From: a virus
IMG/VR virus record: IMGVR_UViG_3300006100_000108
Span: 1-20,233 of that record
Reading direction: 5' to 3' (one strand)
DNA: 20,233 nucleotides
Numbering within the stretch: the first letter of the stretch is position 1; every line of letters begins with the position of its first letter. The position numbers and the translations under genes are program-made. Of this stretch, positions 8,085 to 15,179 are shown piece after piece. The notes beneath the pieces are model-generated. The model saw nothing but the letters and a program-made list of their open reading frames with translations, was not told the DNA's origin and ran no database searches.

Positions 8085-8093
8085 CTTCCACAA

Positions 8094-8133
8094 GTATGGG
8101 AGCCTGTGTTATTCCGTTCGCAGGCTCCCGTAC
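8094..8133 (+). terminator. Strong 15-bp hairpin upstream of polA
   Basis: The arms GTATGGGAGCCTGTG (8094-8108) and CGCAGGCTCCCGTAC (8119-8133) pair over 15 positions with two G-T wobbles. They leave a 10-base loop. This is the most stable hairpin I see in the window, and it sits in one of the few real gaps, 9 bases after the SSB stop. No T-run follows. It could be a U-tail-less terminator, as proposed for actinobacteria, or an attenuator or mRNA-stability element for the polymerase transcript. Confidence 0.6.
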
Positions 8134-8153
8134 ACTAACTTCTAGGGGGACAC

Positions 8154-10151
8154 ATGAATATAATTACAACAAAAGAACAATTAGATGACCTTGTTGAGTA
8201 TTACTCCAAGGTTGATGGTTTTGCATTTGACGTTGAAACTGTTGGAGAAAATAGAGTTCAACCAGTAGTTAACGATGTACTTTGGATTTCCTTAGCAACT
8301 GAAGGTCGTACTGACGTTATTCCAATGGGACATCCTAACGGTGAATTCTTGCGTTGGGACAAAGAATTACTTCTTAGTGGACAACGTAAAGTTGATGCGG
8401 GTAAAGAGTTAAAAGAAACTGATTACTCTAAGAACCAAGCAAAATGGAAACCAGTATTTGATACACCTCCAGGCCAATTACTTCCTGGAGAAGTATTTAA
8501 AGCATTAAAACCACTATTCTTTAGTGACCAATTAAAAGTTGGGCACAACATTAAGTTTGACCTTAAATCAATTGCTAAGTATTACCGTGGAGTAGTTCCA
8601 AAGAAACCTTTTTTTGATACGTTAATGGCTGCTTTTGTTATTGATAACCGCAATCGCGGAGGACTTGGATTAAAAGATTGTGCTGAAAAGTTTCTTAAGA
8701 TTAAAGTTGAAAAAGGTATTGGAGTAGAGGTGGAAGCCCACTCATTTTCAGATGTTGCTCATTATTCTGGGTTTGACTCTGAAGTAACATGGAAGTTGTA
8801 TAAAGAATTAGAGCCTAGATTAACTGGAAGTTTGGCACGGGTATGGTCACTTGAGATGGACGTTGTTGCTGCCCTATGTGACATGGAATTACAAGGTGCA
8901 AGTATTGACGTAAAAGAGTTAGAGAACCTTGCTAAGCGTTTAGAGATAGACATTGATGCTACTAAGGCAAAGGCATGGAAACTTGCTGGTAAAGCATTTT
9001 CTATGAACTCTGTTAAAGAAAAACAAGAATTGCTTTTTTCTCCTAAAGAAGAAGGTGGTCGTGGTATCAAGCCCAACGTTCGTATTAAAGTTGCATTAAC
9101 AGCCAAAGGTCAAAATCTTGCTTTTGCAAATCAACCGTTGACTATTTATAACTACTCGGTATCGTCAGATGCTTTAGAGTTTTATAGAGCCAAGGATGAA
9201 CTAGTTGATGCCATTCTGGAATACCAAGATTTAAACAAGTTAGCAACAACATATGTTATTCCGTATTTAGGTGGAGAAGTTACTCGTACTACATCTGGGA
9301 AATCGCGCATTGTCGATAAAAAGAGCCTTCTTATTAATGGAAAAGTGCACACAAACTTTAAATCCCACGGTGCAGAAACTGGGCGTTTTTCCAGTAGTGA
9401 CCCAAACTTACAAAACATACCTAGTAGCGGACAGTATGGAAAATTAATTCGTAACCTTTTCTATGCCCCAAAGGGATACAAATTAGTAGTAGCAGACTAC
9501 TCACAAATTGAACCACGAATTATTGCGGCATTTTCTAATGACCCAATTCTGATGGACAACTACTTAACTGGTGGAGATGTGTACACCACTATTGGAAACA
9601 CTGTAGGCCTTGACCGTAAAGCAGGTAAGGTCTTGGTTCTGGCTATGTCATATGGCGTGGGACCTGACAAGATTGCATCTTCTTTGGGCCTTAAAGTTCC
9701 AGAGGCTAAAAAACTTCTCAATGATTTTATGGAACAGTTTCATGACATTGATAAATACAAAGCCAGAGTTATTAGACGAGCCAGAGAGTTAGACGTTCCT
9801 TATGTAGAGACGATTTTTGGCCGTAGAAGGTATTTGCCAGACCTTAAAAGCAAAGAACAAGGATTGAAGGCTAGGGCTGAAAGACAGGCTTTTAACACCG
9901 TTATTCAAGGTTCTGCAGCCGATATTATGAAATTGGCTATTGTAAGGGCGCACTCTTGTTTTGTCGATGAACCAGACGTCAATGTCCTTTTGACTGTGCA
10001 CGATGAATTGGTTACAGTTGCTCGTGAAGATTTAGCAGAAGAAACTGCTGAAGCAATCCGCGATTCAATGGAAGGAATTATCTTGAAAGAGATTACAGTT
10101 CCATTGATTGCAGACGTAAAGATAGTTAACAAATGGGGAGAGGCCAAATGA
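8154..10151 (+). CDS. polA: Family A DNA polymerase with 3'-5' exonuclease
   Basis: This is the replicative polymerase of the phage, 665 residues, without the 5'-3' exonuclease domain of bacterial Pol I. Proofreading motifs are intact: Exo I D26-x-E28 (FDVET), Exo II D136 (HNIKFD) and Exo III Y204-x3-D208. Polymerase motif A is DYSQIEPR (448-455), motif C is HDE (616-618), and the O-helix runs R488, K492 to Y500-G501. The residue equivalent to E. coli Phe762 is Leu496. In published virioplankton work, leucine at this site was linked to slower or temperate-like lifestyles. The start has a strong GGGGGA (8145-8150). The gene ends in an ATGA overlap with the zinc-ribbon gene. Confidence 0.96.
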   Translation: MNIITTKEQLDDLVEYYSKVDGFAFDVETVGENRVQPVVNDVLWISLATEGRTDVIPMGHPNGEFLRWDKELLLSGQRKVDAGKELKETDYSKNQAKWKPVFDTPPGQLLPGEVFKALKPLFFSDQLKVGHNIKFDLKSIAKYYRGVVPKKPFFDTLMAAFVIDNRNRGGLGLKDCAEKFLKIKVEKGIGVEVEAHSFSDVAHYSGFDSEVTWKLYKELEPRLTGSLARVWSLEMDVVAALCDMELQGASIDVKELENLAKRLEIDIDATKAKAWKLAGKAFSMNSVKEKQELLFSPKEEGGRGIKPNVRIKVALTAKGQNLAFANQPLTIYNYSVSSDALEFYRAKDELVDAILEYQDLNKLATTYVIPYLGGEVTRTTSGKSRIVDKKSLLINGKVHTNFKSHGAETGRFSSSDPNLQNIPSSGQYGKLIRNLFYAPKGYKLVVADYSQIEPRIIAAFSNDPILMDNYLTGGDVYTTIGNTVGLDRKAGKVLVLAMSYGVGPDKIASSLGLKVPEAKKLLNDFMEQFHDIDKYKARVIRRARELDVPYVETIFGRRRYLPDLKSKEQGLKARAERQAFNTVIQGSAADIMKLAIVRAHSCFVDEPDVNVLLTVHDELVTVAREDLAEETAEAIRDSMEGIILKEITVPLIADVKIVNKWGEAK

Positions 10152-10522
10152 GTAACTCTGATTGGTGGTCTAAACAATTAGGTGGACAAACACCTACTGC
10201 TCAACCACGTCAAGCAAACGTACCAATGCCACCATCGCAACAACCAATGACTCCATACACTCCACCGCAACCGCAACAACCAGTGACAAAAGCAATGAGT
10301 GCAAATCAAACTCAAACATGTCCTGAATGTGGAAGTGCTAACTATATGGCTGTTGCAAATGCTGCACCTCGTTGTTATGACTGTGGTTATCCAATAGGAC
10401 AATCTGGTTCTCGCTACGGAGCATTAACAGGTGCTAAAGTGGAAGGTGGCGCTAAACAAGCGTTAGGTAATGACACAACAAGTAATTGGAACCCACAAGG
10501 AATTATTGGAAGGATTAATTAG
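10148..10522 (+). CDS. Pro/Gln-rich protein with C-terminal zinc ribbon, 124 aa
   Basis: The start at 10148 lies in the ATGA overlap with polA and has GGGGAGAGG upstream. A frame-compatible ATG at 10133 inside polA would add five residues and is less likely. Residues 14-46 are a low-complexity Pro/Gln/Thr segment. Residues 58-79 hold two pairs, CPEC and CYDC (C58, C61, C76, C79), forming a zinc ribbon. The tail is Gly/Asn-rich. It ends in a TAGTG overlap with the RecA gene, so it is probably coupled to both polymerase and recombinase. It may be an adaptor, but no function is shown. Confidence 0.8.
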   Translation: MSNSDWWSKQLGGQTPTAQPRQANVPMPPSQQPMTPYTPPQPQQPVTKAMSANQTQTCPECGSANYMAVANAAPRCYDCGYPIGQSGSRYGALTGAKVEGGAKQALGNDTTSNWNPQGIIGRIN

Positions 10523-11571
10523 TGATAACAGATGAGGCTAAAAAAGTTGTTGCATTACTTAACAAAAAGTTTGGCGACAATGTGGTGGTGTTTGCGAGTG
10601 CTATTCGTAGCGACATCATTCCTCGTATTACTAGTGGTTCTACCACTCTTGATTACGTTCTTGGTGGCGGGTTCCCTGGTAATCAATGGAATGAACTCAT
10701 TGGAGAACCATCGCACGGAAAAACAGCGCTTGCACTAAAGACAATTGCAGCCAATCAAGCATTAAATCCAAATCACACAACGGTTTGGGTAGCAGCAGAA
10801 CAATGGGTTCCAGAGTATGCTGAAATGTGTGGCGTAGATACAGACAGGGTTATTGTTGTAGAAACATCTATTATGGAAGAGGCATATGATGCAGTTATTG
10901 CGTTCGCGGAATCTAAAGCGGTTGATGCTATCGTTATTGACTCTCTCCCTGCTTTATCTCCTTCTCCAGAGATGGAAAAAGATATGGGAGAAGCGACTGT
11001 TGGACGAGGAGCCTTACTAACCAATAAGTTTTTCCGTGTAGTCGGTACAGCGATGAAACGTAGCCTTGTTGAAGATGAGCGCCCAGTCTTGGGGCTTATC
11101 ATTAACCAATACCGCATGAAGATTGGCGTCATGCATGGCGACCCAAGAACAACCCCAGGTGGGGAAGGAAAGAACTACGCATTCTTTACGCGTTGTGAAG
11201 TACGGCGCGATGAATGGATTGAGATTGGTTCTGGAAATAATAAGGTTCGTATTGGACAAAGAATTAAAGTCCGTACATTGAAAAACAAGACTGCTCCACC
11301 ACAACGTGTTGCTTATTTTGATTTTTATTTTGCCGAAGGTGGAGATTGTGCACCAGGAGACTTTGACTTTGCAAAAGAAATTGCATCTCTTGCTGTAGTT
11401 AAAGAAATTATCGAACGCAAAGGCGGTTGGTATTACTACGGAGAACGTAAATGGCAGGGCATTGAACCTGTTATACAAAGTATTAAGGAAGAACTTGACC
11501 TCAAGGAAGAAATCCAAAGGTTAGTTCTTACTTCCAGCGATACCCCTATGGCTGGTGTTAATGAAGAGTGA
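10522..11571 (+). CDS. recA: RecA-like recombinase
   Basis: This is an ATP-dependent strand-exchange protein, 349 residues. Walker A is GEPSHGKT (61-68), where bacterial RecA has GPESSGKT. The catalytic glutamate aligns with E93 (VAAEQW), and Walker B is AIVIDS (D140). The DNA-binding L2 region and adjacent strand are well kept (NQYRMKIGVM, then TTPGGEGKNYAFFTRCEVRR in two parts). The GTG start shares a base with the previous TAG and has AAGGA upstream. It would support recombination-dependent replication and repair. The following nuclease overlaps its 3' end by 11 bases. Confidence 0.93.
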   Translation: MITDEAKKVVALLNKKFGDNVVVFASAIRSDIIPRITSGSTTLDYVLGGGFPGNQWNELIGEPSHGKTALALKTIAANQALNPNHTTVWVAAEQWVPEYAEMCGVDTDRVIVVETSIMEEAYDAVIAFAESKAVDAIVIDSLPALSPSPEMEKDMGEATVGRGALLTNKFFRVVGTAMKRSLVEDERPVLGLIINQYRMKIGVMHGDPRTTPGGEGKNYAFFTRCEVRRDEWIEIGSGNNKVRIGQRIKVRTLKNKTAPPQRVAYFDFYFAEGGDCAPGDFDFAKEIASLAVVKEIIERKGGWYYYGERKWQGIEPVIQSIKEELDLKEEIQRLVLTSSDTPMAGVNEE

Positions 11572-11878
11572 AGGTCAAAAGCAATCCCTCAAGCATGAGA
11601 AGCGATTAGCCAAAGCAATTGGTGGAAGTCGCAACGCTGCTTCAGGAGCCTTTTGGTCTCGCAAAGGCGATGTTCGTTCAGACGACCTGCTGATTGAACA
11701 TAAGTGGACTGGTAAGAAATCTTTTTCTTTAAAGTCTGACGTCTTAAAAAAGATTGTTAGAGAGGCCATCCTTGATGGACGTGTTCCAGTATTGGGCGTT
11801 CATCTAGACGGGGAGAATTACGTTATTCTCCTTGAAGACGATTACTTAGAAATGAGGGACCGACTTAAGGATGACTAA
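11561..11878 (+). CDS. Small PD-(D/E)XK nuclease, putative Holliday junction resolvase
   Basis: The 105-residue protein has the core of a restriction-like nuclease. A basic N-terminal helix (HEKRLAKAIGGSRN) is followed by an acidic pair D41-D42, then E46-x-K48 in LLIEHKWT, and a further helix and strand. The gene overlaps the RecA gene by 11 bases, which fits a recombination nuclease or resolvase. ATG 11561 is preferred. A GTG at 11555 is in frame and would add two residues. Small phage members of this fold have been named resolvases or generic PD-(D/E)XK nucleases, and substrate specificity cannot be read from the sequence. Confidence 0.75.
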   Translation: MKSEGQKQSLKHEKRLAKAIGGSRNAASGAFWSRKGDVRSDDLLIEHKWTGKKSFSLKSDVLKKIVREAILDGRVPVLGVHLDGENYVILLEDDYLEMRDRLKDD

Positions 11879-11881
11879 CAC

Positions 11882-12196
11882 ATGGAAGAACCAGAGTACG
11901 CTTGGCGATATGAGGCGCGGTGTCGAGGAGAAGACACTGACCTTTTCTATCCCCCACGCGATAAAGAGCAGTACAAGATTATTGCAAATCAAGCAAAATC
12001 TTTTTGTTTTGGTGACAGCACTAAACGTGCGTGTCCAGTACAGAAAGAATGTTTATGGGATGCAGTAAAGCGTGAAGAACCTCATGGAATTTGGGGAGGA
12101 CTTTCTCACAGAGAAAGAAATGCCCTAGTTCGTAAGTGGAAAAAAGTACACAAAAAAACAATGACACTAGAAGAGTACATCTTCAGTAGGGGCTAA
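11882..12196 (+). CDS. whiB: WhiB-family iron-sulfur transcription regulator
   Basis: WhiB-like proteins are found only in Actinobacteria and their phages. They bind a [4Fe-4S] cluster and act with the sigma factor at promoters. Here the four cysteines are C14, C42, C51 and C57, followed by the diagnostic turn GIWGG (69-73) and a basic C-terminal segment (RERNALVRKWKKVHKK). The middle spacing is C-x8-C-x5-C rather than the canonical C-x2-C-x5-C, a six-residue expansion. Length (104) is normal. It is placed between two nuclease genes in the recombination block. It is the best evidence that the host is an actinobacterium. Confidence 0.93.
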   Translation: MEEPEYAWRYEARCRGEDTDLFYPPRDKEQYKIIANQAKSFCFGDSTKRACPVQKECLWDAVKREEPHGIWGGLSHRERNALVRKWKKVHKKTMTLEEYIFSRG

Positions 12197-12199
12197 TAA

Positions 12200-13039
12200 A
12201 TGGAAAAAGAGTTAAAGAAGTTCTTAGATGCTAAGAAGACTGAAACACGTCTACTAGGCGACATTGAACGACATCTTATTAAACGACCATTAGATGACCG
12301 TTCAACAACAGTCCTGCACCCGTCAGAAATGATTAAACCTGACTTTTGTCATAGGTATTCTTATTATTTAATGACAGGTGGTAAGCCAAAGACTGATAAG
12401 CCTAATTTGCGTTTGCAGAACATCTTTGATGAAGGTCATTACATCCATGCAAAGTGGCAAAAAAGATTTCAAGAAATGGGAGTTTTATACGGCAAATTTA
12501 AATGCCTAGCCTGTGAAATAACTACAACAGGAATTTCCCCTGAATGCCCTACGTGTGGTCGTACAGATGTTATGGAGTATAAAGAAGTTACTCTTGTAGA
12601 TGACAAACTACGTATTGCTGGCCATACAGATGGTTGGATTAAAGGTATAAAAGAAGATTGCCTTATTGAAATTAAGTCAATTGGAGCAGGAACTTTGCGA
12701 TTTGAGGCTCCAGACCTTCTTTTTGATGCAGGCGGTGACCTTACTAAAGCCTGGAAAAATATTCGTAGACCTTTCCGTTCACACTTACTCCAAGGGCAAA
12801 TGTATTTAGAACTTGCCAAAAGAATGTACGGCGATGAAGCCCCTAATGAAATTGTTTTTCTTTATGAACTAAAAGCAGACCAAGATACCAAAGAGTTTAC
12901 AGTTAAAGCAGATTATGAAATTGTTGCTAGAGTCTTCTACCAAGCAGAACAAGTTATCAAAGCAGTGGATGCAGGAGTTATGCCAGACTGTAATGTTGAC
13001 CCTAATGGTTGCAAATACTGTAATTTAATTGGAGCATAA
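12200..13039 (+). CDS. Cas4/RecB-like PD-(D/E)XK exonuclease with Fe-S and zinc sites
   Basis: The 279-residue protein has the RecB-nuclease motifs: H80, D144 (GHTDG), E157-x-K159 (IEIKS) and Q198/Q200 (QGQMY). C50 near the N-terminus and a C-terminal trio C264, C271, C274 match the split four-cysteine Fe-S arrangement of Cas4 and AddB nucleases. An inserted CxxC-x10-CxxC (C102, C105, C116, C119) adds a zinc ribbon. Its role is probably resection of DNA ends for the phage RecA. No CRISPR array or other cas gene is in the window, so an adaptation role is unsupported. AGGGG (12188-12192) precedes the ATG. Confidence 0.85.
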   Translation: MEKELKKFLDAKKTETRLLGDIERHLIKRPLDDRSTTVLHPSEMIKPDFCHRYSYYLMTGGKPKTDKPNLRLQNIFDEGHYIHAKWQKRFQEMGVLYGKFKCLACEITTTGISPECPTCGRTDVMEYKEVTLVDDKLRIAGHTDGWIKGIKEDCLIEIKSIGAGTLRFEAPDLLFDAGGDLTKAWKNIRRPFRSHLLQGQMYLELAKRMYGDEAPNEIVFLYELKADQDTKEFTVKADYEIVARVFYQAEQVIKAVDAGVMPDCNVDPNGCKYCNLIGA

Positions 13040-13528: not shown

Positions 13529-13680
13529 GATGTTTTGAAAAAATTAGGTATATTAATCGCAAAGAAGCAAAGCGTGCTAGAAATATTAGAGCAATGGCAA
13601 TGGGAATGCATTTGTATGTGTATAAATGTCCTGAATGTACTTTCTTTCATTTAACTAAATACAGAATTGGAAATTACTAA
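13525..13680 (+). CDS. Basic zinc-binding mini-protein, 51 aa
   Basis: The gene fits exactly between its neighbours. ATG 13525 is in an ATGA overlap with the previous stop, and TAA 13678-13680 shares its last base with the next ATG (TAATG). The product has C3 and, after a strongly basic helix (RKEAKRARNIRAM), the motif YKCPECTFFHLT with C35, C38 and H42. This resembles small phage zinc-finger proteins whose tail reads C-P-x-C-x3-H-L. It probably binds nucleic acid. The function is unknown, and the short length makes it easy to overlook. Confidence 0.75.
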   Translation: MRCFEKIRYINRKEAKRARNIRAMAMGMHLYVYKCPECTFFHLTKYRIGNY

Positions 13681-14219
13681 TGATTATTGGATTATCAGGG
13701 TACGCTAAAGTTGGCAAAGATGAAGTTGCACAGATACTAGTTAAGAAATACGGTTTTAAACGTATAGCCTTTGCAGACCCTATTCGTGAATTGTTACTAG
13801 AGATAAATCCAATTCTTGCAAACGGTTATCATCTTAAAACAATAATTAATGAAGAAGGATGGACATTAGCCAAAAATAAAGAAGAAGTTCGTCGTCTTTT
13901 ACAAGAACTAGGTGTAGGTGCTCGTCAAGTTTTGGGTGATGATGTTTGGGTTGTTGCTGCTTTAAGAAAGATGGAAAACTTTAAAGAAAATTATGTTATT
14001 ACAGATGTACGTTTTGAAAACGAAGCAGTAATGGTAAGACAACTAGGTGGGGAAATTTGGCGTATTCAACGTCCAGGAATTCAAGCAGTTAATAATCACG
14101 TTTCTGAATTAGAGATGGACGGTTACAAGTTTGACCGAGTATTACGTAATGAGGGCACATTAGAAGAGTTAGAGTCACTAATTCAAACAAGAATGGATGC
14201 CCCATTACATGCCAACTAA
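13680..14219 (+). CDS. Deoxynucleoside monophosphate kinase (T4 gp1-like)
   Basis: The 179-residue P-loop kinase has Walker A G7-x4-G12-K13-D14 (GYAKVGKD), the substrate-region motif FADPIR (31-36) and the DVRFENE motif (109-115) typical of the phage dNMP kinase family. A variable lid (RRLLQELGVGARQVLGDDVW) lies between. It would phosphorylate dNMPs released from host DNA to supply phage replication. The start is on the TAATG junction with the mini-protein. The 3' end overlaps the RuvC-like gene. Confidence 0.88.
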   Translation: MIIGLSGYAKVGKDEVAQILVKKYGFKRIAFADPIRELLLEINPILANGYHLKTIINEEGWTLAKNKEEVRRLLQELGVGARQVLGDDVWVVAALRKMENFKENYVITDVRFENEAVMVRQLGGEIWRIQRPGIQAVNNHVSELEMDGYKFDRVLRNEGTLEELESLIQTRMDAPLHAN

Positions 14220-14796
14220 ACTTTTTGAAGGCAAACCAATAAAGAAAGATTCTTTAGTAAGCATTGGTATTGACCAATCTTTGACAGGATTTGCCCTTAC
14301 AGTTATGAGCGTAAAATTGCCCGATGAATATTTGACGTGGGTATATAAATCTCCTTATTTCGGTATTGAGAGACTGTCAGATATACGACAGTGGTTAACA
14401 GATAACTTGTATTACGCAGAAGAACATTGGTCTGTCAAAGACATTGCCATGGAAGGAACAGTACTAGCCAGCCAATCAGCATTGGTGCTTGGAGAACTAT
14501 CCGCCGTTGTTCAACTTTCGGTGTTTGATTTCTTCGAAGAAGGCGATGCTCGCCGTTTTATATTAAAAGTTCCACCAATGACCTTAAAGAAGTATGCAGC
14601 AGGCAAAGGAAATGCCAAGAAACAAGAGATGTTGTTACAGATGTACAAGAGATGGGGAGTTGAGTTTAACGACGATAATGCTGCTGACTCCTATGCCCTA
14701 GCCAGACTAGTGTCAGGTAACGCAATTGGCACAATTGAAAAGTCAATTGTTGAGCAAATGTCAGACCCTAAATACAGAGACCAACCACGACTTTAG
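14209..14796 (+). CDS. ruvC: RuvC-like Holliday junction resolvase
   Basis: This RNase H-fold nuclease resolves four-way junctions. Counting from ATG 14209, the first catalytic aspartate is D22 in GIDQSLTGFA, the glutamate is E82 in AMEGTV, and the C-terminal acidic cluster is NDDNAADSYALA (154-165, with D160 the probable last catalytic residue). A basic stretch (KKYAAGKGNAKK, 127-138) precedes it. ATG 14209 gives an 11-base overlap with the kinase gene. An in-frame ATG at 14197 would add four residues, and neither start has a good ribosome site. With the PD-(D/E)XK protein near RecA, the phage may have two junction nucleases. Confidence 0.87.
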   Translation: MPTKLFEGKPIKKDSLVSIGIDQSLTGFALTVMSVKLPDEYLTWVYKSPYFGIERLSDIRQWLTDNLYYAEEHWSVKDIAMEGTVLASQSALVLGELSAVVQLSVFDFFEEGDARRFILKVPPMTLKKYAAGKGNAKKQEMLLQMYKRWGVEFNDDNAADSYALARLVSGNAIGTIEKSIVEQMSDPKYRDQPRL

Positions 14797-14850
14797 CCCT
14801 ACCCTTTGGTGAGGAGCGGCACACTAATTCGAACCAAAGGACTAACACAC

Positions 14851-15141
14851 GTGGAAAAACCTGAAGTACTATCTCAAGAAGAGCCGTTCTTGCGTGTAAG
14901 CGCAAGTTCCAATCCTCAAAGCGTTGCCTCCGCAATCGCCCACGCAATCTATGACAAAGGTGAAGTAAAACTTCGCGCTGTAGGTGCTGGAGCCGTTAAT
15001 CAGGCAGTCAAAGCAATGGCAATTGCCAGTGGTTACGTAGCCCCAAGGGGTATGCGTCTCTACAACGTCCCTGGATTTACAACTATTGAATCCAGAGATG
15101 GCGAAATCTCAGCCATTGTATTTAGCATTAACAAGTTCTAA
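14851..15141 (+). CDS. spoVS: SpoVS-family protein
   Basis: The 96-residue product aligns by eye with stage V sporulation protein S over its whole core. FLRVSASSNPQSVASAIAHA (13-32) and then VGAGAVNQAVKAMAIASGYV (44-63) are the conserved parts, followed by a P-R-G turn and a terminal strand. SpoVS has an Alba-like fold. It is needed for spore maturation in Bacillus and occurs widely in other bacteria, where its role is unclear. I chose GTG 14851 because AAAGGA (14836-14841) lies 9 bases upstream. An in-frame TTG at 14806 would add 15 unconserved residues. In a phage it may bind nucleic acid or modulate host physiology. Confidence 0.88.
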   Translation: MEKPEVLSQEEPFLRVSASSNPQSVASAIAHAIYDKGEVKLRAVGAGAVNQAVKAMAIASGYVAPRGMRLYNVPGFTTIESRDGEISAIVFSINKF

Positions 15142-15179
15142 ATCAGCCGTATCCTTGTACCAGAGTTAAGGAGTCAGTT

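Follow-up and report, generated by a model that had tools for sequence, protein, structure and literature searches.

A core spoVS gene and its predicted leader RNA in phages related to Streptomyces phage BRock

Introduction

What use does a phage have for SpoVS, a protein family annotated for sporulation? In the available text of one study of soil viromes, spoVS and whiB are reported as spore-related genes (PMC6172770), and a study of the ETNP oxygen minimum zone lists spoVS in its accessible part (PMC8940887). PHROGs assigns phrog_35646, the corresponding family, to the category 'moron, auxiliary metabolic gene and host takeover', and the literature examined does not assign SpoVS an established molecular activity. 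The question is raised again by a complete virus record of 20,233 bases, analyzed here at full length and referred to below as the window. An earlier sequence-only reading had noted a SpoVS homologue encoded directly after the replication genes of this phage, and had proposed that the protein could bind nucleic acid, act at cell division, or divert host development.

Results

Identity and predicted fold of the phage SpoVS protein

The spoVS frame at 14851-15141 on the plus strand is open and intact, with 96 codons counted from its GTG start. Its product matches the Pfam SpoVS model PF04232.17 over profile positions 3-82 of 83 (E 2e-27; 95.2 bits against a cut-off of 24), a strong match through the whole domain that bears out the homologue call, and phrog_35646, annotated 'sporulation protein', matches it as well (E 2.5e-25). 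A sequence search of the PDB at E 0.001 returned Thermus SpoVS (2eh1/2ek0) as sole relative (E 1.3e-18). The top match in BFVD is the SpoVS of an uncultured Caudovirales phage, at 61% identity.

An AlphaFold2 model built from 40 sequences (pLDDT 91.1, pTM 0.79) is closest, by structure comparison, to the SpoVS structures, with Z scores of 16.7-17.1 (for 2eh1, Z 16.9 and rmsd 1.3 over 86 residues). The next-best fold is Alba, with Z about 10-11, RNA- and DNA-bound forms included (protein-RNA complex 3wbm, Z 10.4; Alba2-DNA complex 3u6y, Z 9.7), and the predicted structure thus agrees with the Alba-like fold suggested earlier. A likeness to the cell-division protein SepF reached a Z score of only 6.4 and was dropped. 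Alba, an archaeal chromatin- and RNA-binding protein, shares the predicted fold at 13-22% identity in the aligned rows; no match between the window SpoVS and Alba was found at the level of sequence.

The window protein shares its profile, fold, and G-A-x-A-V-N-Q-A-V-K-A core with the SpoVS family as represented by Thermus 2eh1/2ek0 and Bacillus SpoVS. It differs from that family in a set of phage-fixed residues (Y34, R42, R66, D83, I86, and S87), in a more basic core, and in being the product of a phage core gene with its own predicted leader RNA. In an alignment of 23 phage and 17 cellular rows, the phage copies have Y34 for Arg or Lys, R42 for Gln, V63 for Leu, D83 for Gly, I86 for Arg, and S87 for Thr, while R66 is fixed in all 23 phage rows; net charge of the core is +4.0 in the phage set versus +0.5 in the cellular set. 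R42 may correspond in position to a basic, nucleic-acid-contacting residue in Alba. From the modeled fold, we infer that the window SpoVS is a small protein of the Alba superfamily, expected to bind nucleic acid, and of the activities proposed earlier this is the most plausible.

Gene order around spoVS and its relatives

The genes before spoVS form a replication and recombination block, which opens with a DnaB-like helicase, a primase-like protein, and an SNF2-type helicase, and continues through PolA, RecA, a Holliday junction resolvase, a WhiB-like protein, a Cas4-type exonuclease, a dNMP kinase, and a RuvC-like protein. The position directly after the replication genes, as first described, is therefore what the gene order gives.

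8154-10151, plus strand: DNA polymerase A with exonuclease domain (PF00476, E 5.5e-87; PF01612, E 1.9e-14)
10522-11571, plus strand: RecA/UvsX-like recombinase (PF00154, E 9.9e-48; phrog_97)
11555-11878, plus strand: Holliday junction resolvase (phrog_2002, E 4.1e-24)
11882-12196, plus strand: WhiB-like regulator (phrog_472, E 9.3e-18)
12200-13039, plus strand: Cas4-type exonuclease (phrog_2506, E 3.8e-32; phrog_1990, E 6.7e-8)
13680-14219, plus strand: dNMP kinase (PF21448, E 7.7e-19; phrog_139)
14197-14796, plus strand: RuvC-like Holliday junction resolvase, upstream neighbour of spoVS (phrog_159, E 5.4e-22)
14851-15141, plus strand: spoVS, 96 aa, GTG start, stop included (PF04232; phrog_35646; AlphaFold2 model)

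Two further features were seen in the polymerase region. The spacer before the polymerase gene (8085-8153) contains a long inverted repeat, GGGAGCCTG ... CAGGCTCCC, and positions 10004-10172, inside the end of polA, gave Rfam matches to group-II-D1D4-3 and FuFi-1 that are weak, below gathering scores, and probably due to chance.

Among 50,697 records in a phage collection, 14 match SpoVS, six of them records of Streptomyces phages (BRock twice). The closest isolates by SpoVS are the Streptomyces phages BRock, LuckySocke, Alone3, GiJojo, and pSt2308, and a search with the RuvC-like neighbour matched BRock as the only isolate. The homologues in these five phages (gp51 in BRock), annotated as 'sporulation protein' or 'hypothetical protein', lie in the same gene block and order as in the window. 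Fourteen window proteins, from PolA to gp42, match BRock with their order kept, at identities of 53% for SpoVS, 40% for RuvC, and 37% for PolA. BRock, whose genome measures 112,523 bp, is described as a virulent myovirus with no lysogeny genes predicted (PMC7453282).

A scan with BRock SpoVS found 104 relatives, of which the best 80 were kept. In the 48 of these 80 with at least 5.5 kb of upstream sequence, the Cas4-type exonuclease is present in 48 and WhiB in 45, and the order Holliday junction resolvase, WhiB, Cas4, SpoVS holds in 54/54 of the wider loci (again from the best 80 of 104) that have all three neighbours. A RuvC gene upstream of spoVS is found in 8 of these 80 by tblastn and in 9 by profile, and the idea of a universal RuvC-SpoVS pairing was dropped for that reason. 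Judged from these sequences, the phage group related to BRock is large, and spoVS is kept in its replication and recombination block.

spoVS as a core gene of the phage lineage

A scan of IMG/VR with the window SpoVS found 426 relatives, of which the best 80 were kept. To avoid selecting loci by SpoVS itself, we also anchored collections on neighbouring genes. Among the best 80 matches to the RuvC-like protein, spoVS lies downstream in 79 and the remaining locus is too short; among the best 80 matches to the Cas4-type exonuclease (52-100% identity), it lies downstream in 67 and the remaining 13 are too short. Restriction to the best 80 matches biases both sets toward near relatives; within them, no spoVS-free locus with room for the gene was found among 79 RuvC-anchored and 67 Cas4-anchored loci, nor the patchy, accessory presence expected of an auxiliary gene. 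A second SpoVS copy, sought in 13 longer relatives, was found in none, each record giving one match. In a survey of 75 loci of the Cas4-anchored set, in which the number measured per gene ranges from 1 to 75, median identity is 83.8% for SpoVS (62 loci) and 84.8% for RecA (61 loci). In the window phage lineage, spoVS is a syntenic core gene.

The evidence of constraint agrees with this status. In the 12 comparisons with the window copy whose pS is lowest, dN/dS is 0.09-0.15, indicating purifying selection; median pS over all 283 comparisons is 0.71. In a tree of 55 rows, from which seven long-branch rows were omitted (L091, L097, L102, L115, L116, L365, and L368), the 27 phage rows of the window lineage fall on one side of a branch with support 100/100. 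In a tree of all 62 rows, the phage label needs two changes, and a single change is found in 27% of bootstraps. The SpoVS sequences of Lysinibacillus phage LysYB1, Stenotrophomonas phage TS-12, and two faecal phages are placed among cellular copies, which suggests separate captures.

These placements show that capture happens, and the window gene might likewise be a host gene recently acquired and functionless for the phage, or even decaying. The single deep phage clade (with long branches left out), the intact frame, a dN/dS of about 0.1, and retention wherever a locus has room all argue against such an origin, which we regard as scarcely credible; with synteny added, recent capture or decay of a host spoVS is rejected for this lineage.

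Some other phages and plasmids carry SpoVS in different settings. In phages of Stenotrophomonas, Lysinibacillus, Bacillus, and Bacteroides (L113, L114, L115, and L116) the gene has unrelated surroundings, and the L113 and L114 proteins group with Bacillus-type copies. Plasmids of Priestia megaterium encode a SpoVS of a second kind; in one case (L364) its neighbour is annotated as HU family DNA-binding protein.

Host context

An actinobacterial host of the window phage is suggested by its WhiB-like gene together with its relatives among Streptomyces phages. We sampled genomes of the class around one genome (G040) of 9.2 Mb, whose 11 WhiB genes indicate that the class is probably Actinomycetia. 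SpoVS is matched at E 0.001 in 5 of 296 genomes of this sample and above the cut-off in 1. That sole instance lies on a contig of 110,447 bases with BRock-like gene order. The contig (L371; C44 of genome G629) is phage-sized, with 62% GC in the stretch read, and in a probably actinomycete genome of 8.3 Mb it represents either a carried phage or an assembly contaminant. A wider sample of the phylum has SpoVS above the cut-off in 123 of 396 genomes, so the family is not rare across the phylum.

The isolated relatives are phages of Streptomyces, which form spores, and spoVS shares its block with WhiB; an auxiliary 'sporulation' gene, with SpoVS, perhaps together with WhiB, altering septation, sporulation, or dormancy of the host, is accordingly a reading to be weighed. 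It is in print for soil and marine viromes, in the available portions of those studies (PMC6172770, PMC8940887), and effects of SpoVS on polar septation and on sporulation are reported for Bacillus thuringiensis in the accessible text of one study (PMC8510167). The distribution of the gene argues otherwise: spoVS is present in every anchored locus with room and sits among recombination genes, BRock has been characterized as virulent (PMC7453282), and a likely host class mostly lacking SpoVS (1/296) offers no host SpoVS pathway to feed. The available text of a gut-phage survey names spoVT and spoVG, and not spoVS (PMC10294663). We consider the auxiliary reading unlikely. The earlier suggestion that the phage protein could divert host development is unsupported on the same grounds: nothing points there, the gene being core and kept with recombination genes, its relative BRock virulent, and the one host-class copy on phage-like DNA. 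The observations can be explained without a role in host development, for which support is poor. The protein probably works for the phage and not to steer host spore formation.

A conserved leader hairpin predicted to pair with the spoVS Shine-Dalgarno sequence

A 54-nt spacer separates the stop codon of the RuvC-like gene from the spoVS start and is nearly filled by the following elements.

14800-14846, plus strand: conserved leader RNA element of spoVS, 47 nt, by covariance model R1 (57.9 bits, E 1.9e-14)
14803-14810, plus strand: 5' arm CCTTTGGT of the predicted leader hairpin, overlapped by the -10-like TACCCT at 14800-14805
14833-14840, plus strand: 3' arm ACCAAAGG of the predicted leader hairpin, holding most of the Shine-Dalgarno (SD) sequence AAAGGA at 14836-14841

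The SD sequence AAAGGA occurs in 205 of 217 spoVS leaders; the start codons of these 217, chosen by SD strength, are TTG in 147, GTG in 41, and ATG in 29. Conservation was measured in a gap-free alignment, A2, of 53 of the 93 unique leaders, namely the 59 with equal arm spacing minus six out of register (L218, L220, L225, L233, L254, and L263); the window leader itself is excluded, as its arm spacing differs. Mean column identity in A2 is 85%, and the loop core GGAG.GG is invariant. Over 1326 pairs, identity averages 0.79 in the leader versus 0.52 at third codon positions of spoVS and 0.49 at fourfold sites. The 30 nt 3' of spoVS are also fairly conserved (0.66), and part of the leader conservation is therefore a general constraint on spacers.

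The window leader folds with a z score of -2.31; of the 93 unique leaders, 77 have an SD that pairs mostly with upstream sequence, and the mean fold z is -1.47. Burial of the SD is in itself nothing special, several other window genes scoring similarly at 0.7-0.98, and was dropped as stand-alone proof. RNAalifold found no pairs in a first alignment, A1. Gaps split the arms in A1, and for this reason the gap-free set and a duplex test free of register were used next. With the register fixed, pairing is seen in 402 of 540 cells, versus at most 302/540 (or 295/480) when the arms are slid by one, and in none of 2000 permutations did the variable arm positions pair as well. The paired share in A2 is 81.8% of cells, versus at most 55% when slid; pairs changed on both sides number 3, against 3.4 in shuffles, which is no excess. 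Because the arms slide between lineages, the register-free test is weighed above the RNAalifold and A2 counts. It used 41 non-redundant leaders (<75% identity), drawn from the 286 of 298 with an SD motif. A leader's own arms form a duplex of -10.3 kcal/mol, versus -7.6 +/- 0.3 kcal/mol for permuted arms, and 0 of 1000 permutations were as strong; in 10 of the 41 leaders the own-arm duplex does not surpass the average for crossed arms. In a control with equal geometry (13 non-redundant leaders), ten other genes give z scores of -1.0 to +2.7 versus -4.4 for spoVS. Leaders L253, L254, L256, and L257 show compensated arms. By the permutations and the control genes, the SD is paired with an upstream arm and the pairing is kept by covariation.

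Searched with the covariance model R1, 26 sources each gave a single strong site. Eight long records likewise have one strong site each, the next best reaching E 0.1, and thus have one dedicated operator-like element, placed before spoVS. Weaker matches occur in divergent relatives (e.g., L281 and L277). An Rfam search returned four weak matches at E values of 5 or below, all of them away from the leader, and the notion that the leader is an intrinsic terminator was discarded, no terminator being called there. BRock-type phages differ from the window lineage upstream of spoVS, where a terminator-like hairpin, a TATAAT-like stretch, and an ATG start take the place of the SD-pairing leader; the terminator-like site was called by program, and no promoter was called in the TATAAT-like stretch. 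In two distant loci, L285 and L294, the SD is paired with an arm of other sequence and position upstream of spoVS (TTAAGGTAT with ATACCTTAA in L285), and a stretch GGTGGGCA is shared by the two. On comparative sequence evidence, then, the 5' arm of the leader hairpin pairs with the spoVS SD and this pairing is conserved. It probably limits spoVS translation.

A promoter-like motif in the same element

The 5' arm contains a conserved hexamer, TAYCCT, that resembles a -10 element; its T, A, and T are invariant across the leaders of A2. It is a candidate later promoter. The motif AGCCNTAYCCTT has exactly two mismatch-free sites in the window, at 14795-14806 and 15145-15156, which flank spoVS. The spacer holding the second site (15142-15179, between spoVS and the next gene) may carry a promoter-like or other shared element. 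A second hairpin considered in that spacer was rejected, its arms looking alike but without covariation (z +1.7).

The upstream element might then be mainly a promoter rather than a regulatory RNA, with incidental arm pairing. The invariant positions of TAYCCT would fit, as would the repetition of AGCCNTAYCCTT on both sides of spoVS with no arm covariation in the second spacer. Set against this, the first site does show register-free covariation, which is absent for ten other genes; no -35-like conservation was found upstream of TAYCCT; and in eight long records (possibly fragments) the strict motif occurs at most once per record, with no sigma-70 region 2, as a phage sigma for TAYCCT would have, found in them. 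We think it rather improbable that the element is chiefly a promoter; promoter and hairpin may coexist.

Discussion

The explanation that we favour, by a little more belief than doubt, is that the window encodes a phage-owned and phage-adapted SpoVS of Alba type, belonging to the replication and recombination block and under translational control through its leader. While the phage genome is replicated and recombined, SpoVS would coat or remodel phage nucleic acid; the leader hairpin would set the amount of SpoVS made. Phage T4 offers two precedents, each taken from the available text of its source. Late transcripts of gene e lack the 5' strand of an inhibitory helix (PMC3014915), and gene 32 has an autogenous translational operator by which gp32 regulates itself (PMC535899). 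The spoVS leader resembles that of gene e in that a helix would hide the SD and a promoter-like hexamer lies in the 5' arm (PMC3014915), and a nucleic-acid-binding replication protein as a possible autoregulator recalls gp32 (PMC535899). It differs from the T4 leaders in sequence and in the protein encoded, which are unrelated, in its invariant loop core GGAG.GG, and in being described so far from sequence.

Two forms of leader control can be envisaged. Transcripts starting inside the hairpin would leave the SD free, as at T4 gene e, and the -10-like TAYCCT inside the 5' arm favours such control by timing. Alternatively, SpoVS may bind its own leader, as gp32 does, a model favoured by the invariance of the loop and by there being one dedicated copy. 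More specifically, SpoVS could be an RNA-binding autoregulator that recognizes the invariant loop AGGAGYGGCACAC and shuts the SD once the protein exceeds the phage DNA present, which would tie SpoVS production to replication and recombination. We offer this only tentatively, as more doubtful than probable. Were it true, SpoVS would gain a defined molecular activity and phages a new class of cis-regulatory RNA.

It could also be that SpoVS is a DNA coat or recombination accessory whose leader is a weak damper of translation, with no regulator. The SpoVS/Alba fold and the surrounding recombination genes would suit such a role, and the prevalence of TTG and GTG starts (147 and 41 of 217) suggests low translation. 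The loop GGAG.GG, invariant over 53 unique leaders, goes beyond what pairing needs, and we judge this account very unlikely.

Phage SpoVS proteins were already known; what is new is the core, phage-specific status of the gene and its dedicated leader RNA. Neither was found in the literature searched, and Rfam has no match at the leader. A small phage SpoVS with one dedicated, covarying leader RNA makes a directly testable pair of ligand and circuit. SpoVS genes in viromes are currently read as viruses steering host sporulation, as in the accessible text of two studies (PMC6172770, PMC8940887). With spoVS a core gene beside recombination genes, and with a likely host class mostly without SpoVS, the inference of sporulation control should be dropped for this widespread group of phages.
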